Source: Bacteriovoracia bacterium (GTDB taxonomy: Bacteria > Bdellovibrionota > Bacteriovoracia > Bacteriovoracales > Bacteriovoracaceae). From it: a stretch of 64,000 nucleotides of DNA. A program made the position numbers and the translations under genes. The stretch is taken from positions 124,001-188,000 of the forward strand of contig JAUIIL010000002.1 in assembly GCA_030431635.1 (NCBI GenBank), given 5' to 3'. Under the pieces are notes generated by a model, which was not told the DNA's origin, did no database searches, and saw only the letters and a program-made list of their open reading frames with translations. Of this stretch, positions 3,674 to 63,568 are shown one piece after another (position 1 is the first letter of the stretch; each line of letters starts with the position of its first letter).

Positions 3674-4492
3674 ATGACAATGAGTGACAAAACAAGAACG
3701 CTTAAGAGCGTTACTGAAAAAAACTTGGGTATCCTAGGACACAACGTTCTCAACACAATTAATGGGCTTGGTAAGTTCACTAATTATTTAACGAGCGTTT
3801 GTTATTGGGCCTTCAAGCCTCCTTACAGGTGGCACTTGTTTACTCAGCAGATGTATTTCATTGCAAATAAAAGTCTTTTTATTATTTGTTTGGTTTCTGT
3901 TTTTTCCGGAGCTGTTTTTGCTTACCAAACTTATTTGGGTTTTCAAGGTTTGGGTTTTGACTCCTTCATTGGCCCAGTTGTTGCGATTTCTTTAGCTAAG
4001 GAACTAGCTCCCGTTCTTTCAGGCCTTGTTATTGCTGGTAGGTGTGGAGCTGCCATGGCCGCTAATATTGGAACAATGAAAGTCACTGAGCAAGTTGATG
4101 CTCTTGAAGTCATGGGGATTAATTCTCATCAGTATTTGGCAGTACCTCGAATTGCAGCGGCCATTATCAGTATGCCAATTCTTTCAAGTATATTTCTTTT
4201 AGTTGGAAATGTGGGCTCTTGGTTAATTGGAGTTAAAGTTTTGAGAATTGATGAAATGACTTATCTTCAAAAAATTCCTGAATTTATGGGAATGGATGAT
4301 ATTTTTGAAGGACTTATTAAGGCCACTGTTTTTGGTTTCTTGATTGCTGTTATTGGAACTTTCCACGGTTTTGAAGTGAAGGGGGGAGCCGAAGGAGTTG
4401 GTCGAGGAACAAACTTGGCCGTTGTATGGGGAATGGTTATCGTTTTAATTGTTGATTTCTTTTTAACCAGCTTCTTGGCGGTGATTTTATGA
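3674..4492 (+). CDS. mlaE: Mla phospholipid-transport permease
   Basis: Inner-membrane permease of the MCE-type lipid ABC transporter that moves phospholipids between inner and outer membranes. The 272 residues have five or six hydrophobic segments. The conserved core ELAPVLSGLVIAGRCGAA and the MKVTEQVDALEVMG cytoplasmic loop are hallmarks of MlaE. Two ATGs (3674 and 3680) are possible starts; neither has a strong Shine-Dalgarno. The stop overlaps mlaF by four bases (ATGA), so translation is probably coupled. The order mlaE-mlaF-mlaD is the usual one. MlaB and MlaC homologues are not beside it, unlike in enterobacteria. Confidence 0.92.
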   Translation: MTMSDKTRTLKSVTEKNLGILGHNVLNTINGLGKFTNYLTSVCYWAFKPPYRWHLFTQQMYFIANKSLFIICLVSVFSGAVFAYQTYLGFQGLGFDSFIGPVVAISLAKELAPVLSGLVIAGRCGAAMAANIGTMKVTEQVDALEVMGINSHQYLAVPRIAAAIISMPILSSIFLLVGNVGSWLIGVKVLRIDEMTYLQKIPEFMGMDDIFEGLIKATVFGFLIAVIGTFHGFEVKGGAEGVGRGTNLAVVWGMVIVLIVDFFLTSFLAVIL

Positions 4493-5238
4493 GTCATGAT
4501 GAATTTGCGATGGAGTTCATTGATATGACAAAAACCTTTGGGGAGCATACTGTTCTTAATCACCTTAATTTTAAAATTCATCGAGGGAAAATTACGACAA
4601 TCTTAGGCTTCTCTGGAGCCGGAAAATCAACTCTTCTTAAGCATATTTTGGGTCTGCTTTTCCCAACTCATGGTAAAGCCATAGTTTTAGGAGAAGATCT
4701 TTCTCATTTGAGAGAGTTAGAATTAAGGGAATTTAGGAAAAAATTTGGAATGCTTTTTCAGTATGCAGCTCTTTTTGATTCCATGACGACTTTTGAAAAT
4801 ATTGCTTTTCCCTTACGAGAGTTCACAAAAATGAGTGAAGCAGAAATCAAACAAAAAGTAGAAGACCTCATGGAGTCTGTTGGTTTAGCTGAACATGCTA
4901 CTTACAGATTGCCATCAGAATTATCTGGCGGTATGCGCAAAAGAGTTGGTCTTGCAAGGGCCCTTGCTCTAGAGCCAGAAATTATGCTCTACGATGAACC
5001 AACAACGGGCCTCGATCCCATTACAACAAAAATGGTTAACGACCTTATTAAATCGACTTCAGAGAGAAATAAGGCAAAAAAAATGACATCAGTTATCATT
5101 TCTCATGATATTGACGCAACGCTTAAGATCTCAGATTACGTTGCCTTTCTTGAAAAAGGTCAGGTTGTTGAGCACTTGCCTACAGAAGAGTTTAGAAAAT
5201 CTCAAAACCCTATTATTCGGAGATTTCTTGAGTTATAA
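4489..5238 (+). CDS. mlaF: Mla transporter ATPase
   Basis: ATP-binding subunit that powers the MlaE permease from the cytoplasmic face. In order: Walker A GFSGAGKST near residue 40, Q-loop in MLFQYAALFDSM, ABC signature LSGGMRKRVGLARA near 145, Walker B with catalytic Glu in IMLYDEPTTGLD, and the switch histidine in IISHDI. SGGMRKR and FDSMT are typical of the MlaF/Ttg2A subfamily. The 249 residues are normal. It overlaps mlaE by four bases and is followed 57 bases later by mlaD. Confidence 0.95.
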   Translation: MSHDEFAMEFIDMTKTFGEHTVLNHLNFKIHRGKITTILGFSGAGKSTLLKHILGLLFPTHGKAIVLGEDLSHLRELELREFRKKFGMLFQYAALFDSMTTFENIAFPLREFTKMSEAEIKQKVEDLMESVGLAEHATYRLPSELSGGMRKRVGLARALALEPEIMLYDEPTTGLDPITTKMVNDLIKSTSERNKAKKMTSVIISHDIDATLKISDYVAFLEKGQVVEHLPTEEFRKSQNPIIRRFLEL

Positions 5239-5295: not shown

Positions 5296-6672
5296 TTGAA
5301 TGAAATAAAGGTCGGATTAATTACATTAGCGGCCATCGCCAGTACCATTTTTATTTCTTTGAAAGTGACTTCCAATCAGTCAGGATTCGGGAATTATTAT
5401 AAGTATAAAACAGTCGTCAACGATGCTTCTGGAATTTTTAGTAAAACTCCTATTAAAGTAGCAGGGATTAACGCGGGTTCAATTGTTTCAATAGAACTTA
5501 CTGGAACACAGGCCCTCATTACTTTTGAAGTAATTGAGGATGTCATTATTACTGACCAGTCAATTCTTAGAATAAAAACAGTTGGATTTTTAGGGGATAA
5601 GTACCTTGATATTTACGTAGGTAAAGATGGAGGGGAGAGACTTCCTGAACTCTCAATGATTCCTTCTACGGCCGGTGGGGGAATTGAGGATGTGGCCAAA
5701 GATTTTAGTGAAGTCTTGGTTGATGTAAAAGCCGTGGTTAAAAATATTAAAGAGAGTCTTATAGATGATGACAAAAAAAGTGTCGTTAAAAAAATCATGC
5801 AAAATATCAAGCAGATAACTGAAGATATTAAAGCTGTTTCAGGAACCTTAAAGTCCAATAATGATAATATTGATAGAATCATAAAAAATATTAATAGAGT
5901 TTCTGAGCAATTGGCCTACGAAACAGATCGTATGGAAGAAGATTCTTCAATGAGCCATCTTGCTCCAATGATGAAGGATGCGAGAAAAACAGTTGCTGAT
6001 TTAAAAGAAATTGTAGCTGATGTTAAAGCTGGAAAAGGAACTGTCGGAAAGCTCCTGAGAGATGATGAGGTTGTTGATCAGGTATCTGAGACTCTGTCTG
6101 GTGTTAATAGGCTTGTAAATAGAATTAATAATGTCGAAGCTGAGTTGGCCCTCTATTCAGGAGTTAACTCTGATGATGGCTCTCATACTCAATTTGATGT
6201 CGATATTTACCCTGGACCTGAGAGATTTTTTAGGCTTGGTGTTGTTATTAATAGTTTTGGGCCTCAGGTTGAAGAGGATAAAACTTCAACCGTGACAACC
6301 GATGGGGTTACAACTGTTACAGAATCAGAAGAAGTTGATAACAACGCTATTAAATTTAACTTACAAATTGCTCGTAAAATTCAAAGATGGGGATTTCGTG
6401 CCGGTTTATTTGAGACAACTGGTGGGATTGGTGTCGATTATGAAATACCACATTTAGGCATGAAGTACTCCTCTGAGGTTTTTGATTTTAGAGATGAAGG
6501 AAATCCAAGAGTTAGACTTATTTCTGAGTTTAGGTTATGGGGGGTCTTTTACACCCAAATTAGAGGGGAAGACCTTATTTCTGAGACTGATGATCAAAGT
6601 GTGACAGTGACGGCAGGGTTGAAGTTTACTGATCAAGATCTTGCGGCACTTATTGGGTTAATTTCTAATTAA
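5296..6672 (+). CDS. mlaD: MCE-domain lipid-binding protein (MlaD-like) with long C-terminal extension
   Basis: Substrate-binding partner of MlaEF, anchored in the inner membrane and facing the periplasm. A single N-terminal transmembrane helix (about 5-24) precedes one MCE domain (about 36-115; VNDASGIFSKTPIKVAGINAG then GFLGDKYLDIYVG). Long amphipathic helices follow (about 130-290). The last 150 residues are beta-rich with alternating aromatic strands (RKIQRWGFRAGLFETTG, LISEFRLWGVFYTQ) that look like outer-membrane strands. At 458 residues it is over twice the length of E. coli MlaD. TTG at 5296 is the best start: AAGGGA lies about ten bases upstream, and the nearby ATG at 5300 is in another frame. 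Confidence 0.85.
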   Translation: MNEIKVGLITLAAIASTIFISLKVTSNQSGFGNYYKYKTVVNDASGIFSKTPIKVAGINAGSIVSIELTGTQALITFEVIEDVIITDQSILRIKTVGFLGDKYLDIYVGKDGGERLPELSMIPSTAGGGIEDVAKDFSEVLVDVKAVVKNIKESLIDDDKKSVVKKIMQNIKQITEDIKAVSGTLKSNNDNIDRIIKNINRVSEQLAYETDRMEEDSSMSHLAPMMKDARKTVADLKEIVADVKAGKGTVGKLLRDDEVVDQVSETLSGVNRLVNRINNVEAELALYSGVNSDDGSHTQFDVDIYPGPERFFRLGVVINSFGPQVEEDKTSTVTTDGVTTVTESEEVDNNAIKFNLQIARKIQRWGFRAGLFETTGGIGVDYEIPHLGMKYSSEVFDFRDEGNPRVRLISEFRLWGVFYTQIRGEDLISETDDQSVTVTAGLKFTDQDLAALIGLISN

Positions 6673-6719
6673 GTAGGGGCTTTTCTTGCTCTTCAAAGTA
6701 AAATTGAATATTGTTAAGT

Positions 6720-7415
6720 ATGGAAAAAAATTGGTTAATTAGAACCAAAAACAATCATATACTAGGACCAGTTTCAAAAAAGAAAGTTTTAGAACTTTAT
6801 CATAACGGTTCTTTAAAACCTGAGGATGAAATATCTTCTGGAAATGGGTATTGGTTTTTTATTAAAGAGCAAGAACTTATTGATAAGTATTTGATAGGGG
6901 AAACAGTTCAGGGATTTAATCCAGTTTCTGAAGCTCATAACACCTTAGGTGAAATGATTGAGGAAGCTGAACTTCCTCCTGAAAATGAGATTGAAAATAC
7001 TCAAGTCATAGACTTAAATCAAATGAGCGAATTAAGTGCTGAGAATTCAGAAGAAAAAAAAAACTTAGAAAGTGAAGTTGCTGAAACACCTGAGCTTCCT
7101 GAAGAGGTCTATAAACTTCAAGAAGAATCTGAAGAGAGAAGTGAAGAGCTTCTTGTTAATGAAATAGAAGAGAATGAAGAAGAATTTTTTATCGATCAAA
7201 GTGACTTAGAAATCATAGAGCTAGAAAAAAAACGAGACTTAAGCGATTATTTTCTTTTTTTTCTTTCATTTATTTTTTTAGCAGCAGCTATATATGCTTT
7301 TTATCATAGGCAAAATATTTTAAAACTTTTTATAGGCTCTATGGCCCATGCTCAAACAAATATATCGACAAACTCCTTAGTAAAAAAAAAAGAATTTTTT
7401 CCTTTGAAGAAATAA
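6720..7415 (+). CDS. GYF_2-domain membrane protein (probably only the first part of a longer protein)
   Basis: Residues about 3-55 (NWLIRTKNNHILGPVSKKK, then LYHNGSLKPEDEI and GYWFFI) fit the bacterial GYF_2 domain, a small peptide-binding module. A very acidic, Glu-rich linker follows (about 75-170), then one transmembrane helix (SDYFLFFLSFIFLAAAIYAF). The stop at 7413-7415 comes just after a run of ten A (7382-7391). Coding clearly continues in the -1 frame beyond it, so this is probably the N-terminal half of one protein with the next entry. ATG at 6720 is preferred to an in-frame TTG at 6711. Neither has a Shine-Dalgarno. Confidence 0.7.
   Translation: MEKNWLIRTKNNHILGPVSKKKVLELYHNGSLKPEDEISSGNGYWFFIKEQELIDKYLIGETVQGFNPVSEAHNTLGEMIEEAELPPENEIENTQVIDLNQMSELSAENSEEKKNLESEVAETPELPEEVYKLQEESEERSEELLVNEIEENEEEFFIDQSDLEIIELEKKRDLSDYFLFFLSFIFLAAAIYAFYHRQNILKLFIGSMAHAQTNISTNSLVKKKEFFPLKK
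7382..7391 (+). other. A10 run at a likely frameshift or slippage point
   Basis: Ten consecutive A read as GTA AAA AAA AAA GAA in the GYF frame. A -1 shift here, or one extra A in the transcript, joins the GYF frame to the downstream frame. That frame is open from 7310 and has no ATG, GTG or TTG until 7571. It may be programmed slippage, a real one-base deletion or a sequencing error. Confidence 0.6.
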
Positions 7416-7570
7416 AAAAAGAAAACACTAGTATTAAACTCGAATTTTCCTTTGATGGTCTTTTCCTTAAAGGTACAATCAACGAGTTCCCTGAGACTTG
7501 CAGAGGAGCTAATCAGTTTTTTTTCCGTATTGCCTTATTTTTTTCAACATTTGAACTTAATGAAAAACAA

Positions 7571-8551
7571 ATGAAGTTTTTAGAAAATTGCTACCGAGTG
7601 CTTGATAGCAAAATACTAGTCCCTAGACCTCTTGATAAATTTAAGGTCCCTATTCTCTTTAAAGGAAAAGCAGCGATTGATTCTAAGAAGCAAAAAACAA
7701 AACTCTCTGATCACTTTCTGAACGAAGCTCTCTTTCATCTTGAGGATAAAAATGATATTGAAAAATTAGATCTTATTTATCCTGTCGTTTCTCAATTAGA
7801 AAATGATCATGGCCTGCTCTCTTTGCTTCTTCGTTCTTTTTTATTTCAACAGTTAGGTAATCAAGGAAAAGTCACAGAGTTAATGGATAAAATTTATCAA
7901 ATTTCTCCATTGCTTTCTTTTAAAAACTCAACTTTTAAACAAGAAAACTATAAAAATGTTTTATCTAAGATTGAATTGATGACTCAGTATTTGGAAAGGC
8001 TTTCTCTTGGAGAGAGGCGTTCACAAATGTTAAAAGTTATTCTAAAAAGAGAGTTAAGAACTGAAGCTTTTGAAGTGGATTTTTCTCTCCAAGAATTAAG
8101 AGAGGTTGTAAAATCTCCCATCTTAGGATTGAGATACCCTACAGTTTGGTTTCCTTATTTGTATAAGAGAGATAGTTTTAATCAAGCGATTGATTATTTT
8201 GAAAAAACATTAGAGTTAAATGAAGTTCAAAAAAAGATAGATAGTATTACTTGGTTAACACAAATCCATCTTCCAAGAGAGAGTTCTATTCGAGAAAAGT
8301 TCTTAAACAAAATTATTCAAATGCAAAGCAGTGTGGAGTCTGAAGATAAAATACTTTTTTTTCTTTTAGCAGAAAATGAAACAATTAAAAATAACTTATC
8401 GACTCAAAATAAATTTAAACCTCTTTTTAACGAAAAGAGAGAGTTTTTTAGAGAACTTTTAAAAAATGGCGACTATCTTTACTACAGCTTTTATCAATTA
8501 TTAAAGTTGGGAGACGAGCAAGAAGAATATTTTTTTCAAGTGGCTCAATAA
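7571..8551 (+). CDS. helical protein of unknown function, likely C-terminal part of the GYF protein
   Basis: The first ATG is at 7571, but the same frame upstream (about 7392-7570) reads like protein: FSFEEIKKENTSIKLEFSF, then DGLFLKGTINEFPETCRGAN. The real product therefore very likely begins in the GYF gene and enters this frame at the A10 run. From the ATG it is 326 residues, mostly alpha-helical, with leucine-rich helices resembling TPR-like repeats but no recognisable motif. If joined, this part would lie across the membrane from the GYF domain. The stop abuts the ATG of the methyltransferase gene. Function unknown. Confidence 0.6.
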   Translation: MKFLENCYRVLDSKILVPRPLDKFKVPILFKGKAAIDSKKQKTKLSDHFLNEALFHLEDKNDIEKLDLIYPVVSQLENDHGLLSLLLRSFLFQQLGNQGKVTELMDKIYQISPLLSFKNSTFKQENYKNVLSKIELMTQYLERLSLGERRSQMLKVILKRELRTEAFEVDFSLQELREVVKSPILGLRYPTVWFPYLYKRDSFNQAIDYFEKTLELNEVQKKIDSITWLTQIHLPRESSIREKFLNKIIQMQSSVESEDKILFFLLAENETIKNNLSTQNKFKPLFNEKREFFRELLKNGDYLYYSFYQLLKLGDEQEEYFFQVAQ

Positions 8552-9115
8552 ATGAAAGACTACGTCCAGCCTGAGTTTTATCATTTTAATGAAGATTCTT
8601 TGAATTTAGTATCTATTGTAAATCATTTTATTGGGAATAAAAAAATTTCAACTTGCCTCGACCTAGGAGCTGGATGTGGAGTCATTGGTTGTGAATTATC
8701 AAAATGTTTATCGATAGAAGAGTTAACATTTCTTGAAATTCAAGACGAATTTCTTTCTTCTTTGAAAATAAATATTAAACAACAGCTAAGTTCGAAGGGA
8801 CATATAATTCAATGTTCATTCAAAGAGTTTAAAAATAAAACGTTTGATCTGATTGTTTCTAACCCTCCTTTTTATCAAAAGAACAAATCAAGAATCTCTC
8901 CAGATAAAAGAAGGGCCATTTGTCGTAGTTTTATTGTTGATTCATTTGATGATTGGTTCGCGACAGTGGTTGGGTGCATGACAAAAAATTCTGAAGCTTT
9001 TTTTGTCGTAGATGTAGGACTTGAGAAAGAACTCTCTTTACTTGTAGGAAAACAATATAATTTAGAGCTTATACAAAAGAAAAAAAATAGTTTATTTTTT
9101 CATCTATTTTTTTGA
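8552..9115 (+). CDS. SAM-dependent N6-adenine methyltransferase, TrmN6/YfiC-like
   Basis: A class I methyltransferase. The SAM-binding glycine motif is CLDLGAGCGVIGCEL (about residues 33-47), an acidic end of strand 2 is in FLEIQDEF, and the catalytic N-P-P-F motif is in IVSNPPFYQ (about 105-113). SNPPF followed by a charged loop and RRAICR resembles the tRNA1(Val) A37 N6-methyltransferase family rather than PrmC, which normally has NPPY and an N-terminal helical domain absent here. At 187 residues it is short for TrmN6 (about 245). The ATG follows the previous stop directly, and the 3' end overlaps the convergent DciA-like gene by 16 bases. Confidence 0.65.
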   Translation: MKDYVQPEFYHFNEDSLNLVSIVNHFIGNKKISTCLDLGAGCGVIGCELSKCLSIEELTFLEIQDEFLSSLKINIKQQLSSKGHIIQCSFKEFKNKTFDLIVSNPPFYQKNKSRISPDKRRAICRSFIVDSFDDWFATVVGCMTKNSEAFFVVDVGLEKELSLLVGKQYNLELIQKKKNSLFFHLFF

Positions 9116-62564: not shown

Positions 62565-62587
62565 TCCAGAATTATAGCTTTTTTTTT

Positions 62588-63568
62588 TTAATTCTTAAAG
62601 AATCTCATTGAAGGAACAAAGGCAATATTTCTTTTTTCTTTATCTAGTTTTGACCACTGTTCTGCTACAATTTTCCATTCGTAATCGCTATTTTTTTGGA
62701 GATAAAGCGTTTTCTTACCCAAATCGTCTATCGTCTCAGATTTATAGTCTTGCTGCATTTGAACGACTGCGTAATTTTGATGGACGAGTATTGATAGGTG
62801 TTGAAACTTAATAGAGGGGGTTCCTGGTAATGAAAAGATGGCTTTCTTATAACGTTTATACTCTTCATACTTCCCTTTTCTAGGGTTATAAAAACGTGAG
62901 GAGTCATAAAAAGAGATATATTTCTCAAAATTTTTCTCTTCCCAAGCTTTTTGCCACTCTTTAACGAGCCCAACTAAATCAGTTCTTAGTTCATTCCAAG
63001 AATCGTTGTTAAGATAGTTTAAATTTTCGACAATTACCATGGACGTATTTTTAAGATCGATATACTGAGAAATATCTTTGAGATCCTCATCAACAACCAC
63101 AACACATCCTTTTGAATCAAGGCCTTTGTTTATTCTAGAGTTGTCATTTGTTGAGTGAAGCCAAATCCCGCCACCAGTTTTGCCAAGACTACGATCGATA
63201 AAATTAGGATAATTACTAGTAAAAGCACCAGCTCCGTAAATCTCTCCCTGTTTTTGTCCATACTTTTTGATAAGTTCAGTGTCGGGTATAAAATCAGTAA
63301 GGTTATAAATACCTTCAGGTGTTTTTTTATCCCCTTCAACATACTTATTTCCTGAAAATTTTCCTGTGGCTATTTTGTATTTTTTTAAAAGTTTTGGAGT
63401 TGAATTACTATTTTCGTAAAGATAGAGGGTATGAGTGGATTTCTCAGCGATAACAACATGGTGAGAGAATTTGTTATCTAAAAGAACGATATTAGAAGGA
63501 AGAAAGTCTTGGGCCACGGCCCCTAAACTAATAATAGTTGACAAGAATAGTAGTTTGTACGCATTCAT
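62588..63568 (-). CDS. L,D-transpeptidase-fold (YkuD) protein with NTF2-like tail, Csd6-like
   Basis: 326 residues from ATG 63568, with GGAG six bases upstream and a signal peptide (MNAYKLLFLSTIISLGAVA). Residues about 35-190 are a YkuD catalytic domain: GGGIWLHSTND and GLDSKGCVVV give the His and Cys of the active site. About 200-326 are an NTF2-like domain (SFYDSSRFYNPRKGKYEEYK). This combination is that of Helicobacter Csd6 and Campylobacter Pgp2, which trim peptidoglycan peptides (L,D-carboxypeptidase) and set helical shape. Its neighbours (bactofilin, coiled-coil gene) suggest a shape-related role. Confidence 0.85.
   Translation of the reverse strand: MNAYKLLFLSTIISLGAVAQDFLPSNIVLLDNKFSHHVVIAEKSTHTLYLYENSNSTPKLLKKYKIATGKFSGNKYVEGDKKTPEGIYNLTDFIPDTELIKKYGQKQGEIYGAGAFTSNYPNFIDRSLGKTGGGIWLHSTNDNSRINKGLDSKGCVVVVDEDLKDISQYIDLKNTSMVIVENLNYLNNDSWNELRTDLVGLVKEWQKAWEEKNFEKYISFYDSSRFYNPRKGKYEEYKRYKKAIFSLPGTPSIKFQHLSILVHQNYAVVQMQQDYKSETIDDLGKKTLYLQKNSDYEWKIVAEQWSKLDKEKRNIAFVPSMRFFKN

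Follow-up and report, generated by a model that had tools for sequence, protein, structure and literature searches.

The window, i.e., the whole stretch of 64,000 nucleotides from a Bacteriovoracia bacterium that was analyzed, contains three genes of an Mla lipid transporter, mlaE (3674-4492), mlaF (4489-5238) and mlaD (5296-6672), all on the forward strand. Their assignment is supported by the NCBIfam model TIGR00056, above its cut-off for mlaE, by further MlaF-like and MlaD-like matches and by Pfam MlaD (E 3.4e-12). The gene described here follows directly and in the same orientation, which meets the criterion of an MlaFED order (mlaE-mlaF-mlaD) immediately upstream, and it is followed by a methyltransferase (MTS) gene (8552-9115, forward strand) whose ATG abuts the preceding stop codon without gap. 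Across the 123 loci that were compared, an MlaD-like match was found in 114 and an MlaF-like match in 107. An Rfam search of the window returned only a tRNA. On the minus strand, an A11 run (62579-62589) is separated by one codon from the open end of an ORF of 278 codons and is probably upstream of the true start of that ORF.

The gene starts with an ATG at 6720 (or a TTG at 6711), and its frame 0 (6720-7415, forward strand) encodes a GYF-like domain, an acidic linker, one transmembrane (TM) segment, an AHAQ motif and the terminal residues KKKEFFPLKK. The TM segment, YFLFFLSFIFLAAAIYAFY (7248-7304), is predicted from hydropathy only, and AHAQ (7344-7355) is a signal-peptidase-like AxA/Q motif. 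The TAA stop codon which terminates this short product (7413-7415) lies 21 nt past a run of exactly ten A (7382-7391), read in frame 0 as GTA AAA AAA AAA GAA. A second A10 run, "site 1", is located in the linker (7054-7063), 328 nt upstream of the slip run, and is in frame in this gene. Open between 7310 and 8551, the -1 frame ends with a TAA at 8549-8551 and has its earliest ATG, GTG or TTG at 7571. An earlier note on this DNA had claimed this lack of an early start codon in an open -1 frame and the end of the GYF frame at 7415 after the A10 run, and direct inspection of the sequence bore out both. Past the run, the -1 frame (7392-8551) encodes a C-terminal domain of ~386 residues, recognized by translation, alignment and AlphaFold2. 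If the mRNA carries one additional A at the A10 run, or the ribosome slips by -1 there, translation continues into the sequence KKKRIFSFEE and both frames are joined in a protein of ~610 residues (~224 + 386).

The N-terminal domain (6720-6935), with the pattern WLIRT...ILGP...DEI.SGNGYWF, was delineated by alignment A1 and Pfam. In 17 aligned orthologues, this region has 12 invariant columns, and 13 of the 17 members matched Pfam GYF_2 (PF14237) at E <= 0.1, the best at 4.7e-5. Against the same model, the domain of the window reached only E 0.022-0.063, under the gathering score, and is hence named GYF-like. In one other genome (G036), a second short GYF-like gene was observed (L191, 3431-3770), which ends in a long lysine stretch.

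A search with the -1 protein retrieved relatives in 19 of 59 genomes, the source genome included, and the enlarged regions of these genomes revealed, in most cases, an identical break at an A run. With the N-terminal profile (A1), the gene was retrieved in 121 of 129 Bacteriovoracaceae genomes, giving 80 named loci, mainly from metagenome assemblies of Bacteriovoracaceae and Halobacteriovorax. The 123 loci were analyzed by N- and C-terminal profile searches and by the shortest open-frame path joining both matches. All A runs of at least six in the overlap were listed, so the absence of runs below nine was not built into the search. Five two-gene loci (L101, L134, L146, L148, L151) were excluded from the slip-site counts after inspection and, since L099 and L131 are the same locus on one contig, the 73 rows of the resulting table represent 72 distinct loci. 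Because these loci share descent, p-values derived from locus counts overstate their independence, and most of the genomes are metagenome assemblies.

In these 72 distinct loci, from ~27 genera, the final shift is -1 and occurs at a pure A run, of nine (12 rows), ten (51), eleven (6), twelve (3) or fourteen (1) nucleotides and never below nine, with the runs in codon phases 0, 1 and 2 in 37, 11 and 25 rows, respectively. Two criteria for programmed transcriptional realignment of the tssM/dnaX type are fulfilled: alignments A1 and A2 and the profile matches support the conservation of coding sequence before and after the run, in two different frames, and an A/T run of at least ~9 marks the frame transition in every -1 locus (A9-A14). 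A -1 shift at A9 also occurs in the gene of genome G020, which is split over two contigs (L030 and L089) and stands outside these counts. Five species have +1 shifts at A9-A12 (L046, L062, L071, L093 and L107), and at the C-terminal join the shift is -1 in all but two loci. In L062, L071, L093 and L107, the linker run itself is the +1 shift site.

The frame is continuous in 15 species, 11 of which retain an A9 or A10 run in the corresponding position, 42-59 residues past the TM start. These single ORFs, which the earlier note had suggested looking for among orthologues, together with the -1 break at A9-A14 in many other species, support its proposal that the two frames encode one protein of ~610 residues. 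The pattern that would have refuted it, two genes with their own starts, was encountered in only five species. These have no A9+ run at the junction, and in all five the start of the second gene product resembles a signal peptide, with an xAQ- or xSQ-type motif at its end (e.g., MIKPILFCLLLLSTTIQAQ and MKAILFYFILINFSFAQ). Beyond what the note had claimed, the break is conserved family-wide and the run is kept even in continuous-frame species. In the genus g15 clade and a few other genomes, the protein ends shortly past the TM segment without an adjacent C-terminal domain, and this domain was not found elsewhere in the short-form genomes tested, except for one weak partial match (G019). In outgroup families of the same phylum, a short GYF-linker-TM protein is encoded directly after mlaF.

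The position of the run relative to the TM segment varies in a few lineages. In genus g32 (L099/L131, L130, L135, L147), the -1 run is found 96-109 residues past the TM start, apparently inside the C-terminal domain and past its first cysteine, so that the slip site has moved. In L038, L063, L102 and L103, the -1 run precedes the TM segment, and the short product would therefore be without a membrane anchor.

The C-terminal domain contains two cysteine residues which are invariant in an alignment of 46 sequences (A2), encoded in the window by TGC codons at 7499-7501 and 7589-7591. In the larger set, the first is present in 73 of 73 rows and the second in 68 of 73. Such paired cysteines suggest a disulfide and hence an exported domain, an inference in keeping with the signal peptides seen in species with two genes. 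The AlphaFold2 model (pLDDT 88, pTM 0.86) starts with a small beta sheet, and a helical repeat follows. No convincing match to the domain was obtained in Pfam, NCBIfam or PDB sequences, and a Foldseek search of the PDB returned none at E <= 0.001, with only weak TPR-like hits. The C-terminal part is probably an exported, cysteine-containing helical-repeat domain. In outgroup loci L187 (3017-4688), L176, L177 and L186, a GYF-like N-terminus is fused to C-terminal repeats of TPR-like appearance, and L187 gives a weak match to the C-terminal profile (E 9e-4).

Independent initiation of the C-terminal ORF was considered for the window and rejected, as the product would lose the first cysteine and any signal peptide. 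The first start codon of the -1 frame, at 7571, falls between the two cysteine codons; being past the invariant one at 7499, its use would therefore remove conserved sequence. Family-wide, this argument is weaker: ATG, GTG and TTG are all absent before the first cysteine in 43 of 73 rows, and ATG alone in 63 of 73.

Collectively, we regard the frame change as almost certainly conserved and functional, and consider it very probable that both a short membrane protein and a longer one, extended by an exported domain, come from one gene, the ratio of the two products being inferred. RNA polymerase slippage is favored as the main mechanism, with fair though far from full confidence; the slippage event itself is deduced from sequence comparison, in the absence of RNA or protein data. 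Several lines of evidence support this choice. The length threshold of nine holds in every codon phase. A ribosome slipping on A_AAA_AAA or A_AAA_AAG could use seven or eight A, yet none of the 72 -1 loci has only A7-A8 or only A_AAA_AAG. The +1 shifts of five species are impossible by a single -1 ribosomal slip, the run is retained in 11 of the 15 continuous-frame species, and no downstream RNA structure was detected (mean z -0.26 across loci). Also counted in favor are the conserved cysteines and confident fold of the -1 product, the tssM1 precedent described below and the close frame-0 stops: the distance from the run to the stop has a median of 6 nt across loci, vs ~22 nt expected from that frame in other parts of the C-terminal coding region, and none of 5000 simulations matched it. 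Long A runs are moreover absent from 151 kb of mlaD region (no A9+), a further point for this reading, and reach 0.14 per kb in the C-terminal kilobase. A linker run of A9-A12 before the TM segment is present in 31 of the 72 frame-differing loci (0.81 per kb) and in 12 of the 15 in-frame species.

The proposed scheme is as follows. Faithful A10 transcripts would yield a short inner-membrane protein with, by inferred topology, a cytoplasmic GYF-like domain, the acidic linker and the TM segment, ending soon after KKK. On the run, RNA polymerase would slip and leave a fraction of transcripts with one additional A (or two fewer). Slipped transcripts would be translated through the -1 frame into the long form, adding the 386-residue helical-repeat domain with its two conserved cysteines, presumed to be exported. 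An AxAQ-like motif, present within 26 residues before the run in 59 of 73 -1 rows, may allow signal peptidase to release the domain; this inference rests on the motif itself and on the two-gene relatives, which have signal peptides. Since the short form resembles the whole outgroup protein, slippage probably sets how much of the Mla-associated GYF membrane protein is made relative to a version extended into the periplasm.

An alternative that is possible, if rather unlikely, is programmed -1 ribosomal frameshifting on A_AAA_AAA, with the long form translated from unedited mRNA. This heptamer occurs in 0-frame register inside every run of at least nine A and satisfies X_XXY_YYZ. The near-constant -1 direction at the C-terminal join supports the alternative and counts against RNA polymerase slippage, as does the near confinement of A9 runs to phase 0 (Fisher p 0.003, uncorrected for phylogeny), which transcription should ignore. 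The same holds for a modest excess of SD-like motifs upstream of the run (13 of 73 rows vs ~5 in control windows). RNA polymerase slippage is also weakened by the +1 cases deriving from metagenome assemblies. Ribosomal frameshifting is, in turn, difficult to reconcile with the missing A7-A8 and A_AAA_AAG sites and downstream structure, with the +1 cases and with the runs retained in continuous frames, and ribosome sliding in vitro is weak at A9-A10 (PMC4363877). It could possibly be aided by nascent-chain tension as the TM segment enters the translocon: by hydropathy scan, the run starts 43-56 residues past the predicted TM start in 63 loci, near the ~45 residues at which pulling on a TM helix begins in E. 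coli (PMC7886326), and nascent-chain pulling stimulates -1 frameshifting in an alphavirus (PMC8682741). This spacing is also explained simply by protein architecture. We view as improbable the strict version, a force-gated frameshift in which the TM segment, 43-56 residues behind, engages the Sec translocon as the run is decoded and pulling triggers the -1 slip; if true, only properly inserted chains would gain the exported C-terminal domain. RNA polymerase and ribosomal slippage can act together.

Phase variation, in which DNA polymerase slippage on the run would toggle the long form between cells, fits an envelope gene with a homopolymer run. A tree built on mlaF, mlaD, the methyltransferase and the N-terminal domain shows the -1 state throughout the family, with in-frame species scattered among it, and the frame state requires 11 Fitch changes, near the mean of 14.0 with shuffled labels. 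We nevertheless give this explanation very little credit, as a single "off" frame is shared by 72 of ~89 loci, the alternative one being found in just two, and the frame-0 stops are unusually close. In addition, A10 is shared by the sister species L043 (-1) and L047 (in frame), whose frame difference is due to two bases before the run, a switch outside the run which is also counted for RNA polymerase slippage. Hardly credible at all are gene decay and an error of sequencing or assembly. An A10 run is a hard homopolymer, and undercalling one A would, by inference, yield exactly the -1 pattern. However, ~27 genera from different projects share the break, including an isolate draft (L072) and a two-contig genome (L024, G002), and the -1 frame is conserved over deep divergence. 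Other A9-A11 runs are in frame, including site 1 of the same gene. Wherever long ORFs have another A9+ run within the surveyed ~464 kb of the contig and 20 additional regions, it is in frame or at an ordinary gene end, and the assembly therefore calls such runs correctly. Sequencing error was rejected on the basis of these in-frame runs and of the family-wide recurrence. Within the 3.32-Mb genome, only 13 A/T runs of at least ten were counted, two of them inside this 1.8-kb gene (P ~3e-5 under random placement). Two other sites, L196 and C2:427413, were examined as further frame changes at A9+ runs and rejected, as they look like ordinary adjacent genes. At L196, an A10 run (~2076) precedes the end of a 120-codon ORF by nine codons, with a 495-codon ORF in the -1 frame immediately after; these are probably two normal genes, though L196 stands as a second candidate.

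Slippage of RNA polymerase, the favored mechanism, has a close precedent in tssM1 of Citrobacter rodentium, where mRNA copies of an A11 run contain extra As and neither product is dispensable (PMC4256274). As in tssM1 and a tssM of Yersinia pseudotuberculosis, the run is located in a gene for an inner-membrane protein with a stop codon soon after, and an extra A restores the frame into a C-terminal domain, giving two length variants (PMC4256274). The proteins are unrelated, and what is inferred here was demonstrated there by mass spectrometry and Western blots (PMC4256274); the arrangement of the GYF gene, in contrast, is conserved across a whole family. The dnaX genes, with A9 in Thermus thermophilus (PMC1088944) or A10 in a two-ORF version (PMC3711429), also have two products sharing an N-terminus and exist in continuous-frame and two-frame versions; dnaX is an unrelated gene, however, and Thermus slippage gives the shorter product (PMC1088944). 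The magnesium chelatase cluster of Antonov et al. likewise shifts -1, at A7-A11, and has fused homologues; its shift efficiency rises with run length in an E. coli reporter, but its runs go down to A7 and the protein is unrelated (PMC3711429). A single conserved direction was regarded by the same authors as a sign of ribosomal frameshifting (PMC3711429). Applied to the GYF gene, this criterion gives a dominant -1, next to +1 shifts in five species and a continuous frame in 15. The outgroup GYF proteins share the GYF-like domain, linker, single TM segment and neighborhood, but end just past the TM segment, with neither the C-terminal domain nor an A run there. No earlier report of this gene was found in the open-access literature.

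To our knowledge, few cases of functional slippage are known in bacterial cell genes, i.e., outside transposons, and this gene would be a new case, and a broad one, of bacterial programmed frameshifting. Gene callers are apt to annotate its protein as two hypothetical genes or as a pseudogene. With one slip site kept family-wide, and with continuous-frame, two-gene, +1 and C-terminal-domain-less variants, the family offers a ready-made experiment on the retention of slippage. A role with the Mla transporter is inferred from the neighborhood alone, and on that basis the GYF protein, with a domain unmatched in Pfam and NCBIfam, is a probable partner at the Mla lipid-transport locus of predatory-type bacteria.
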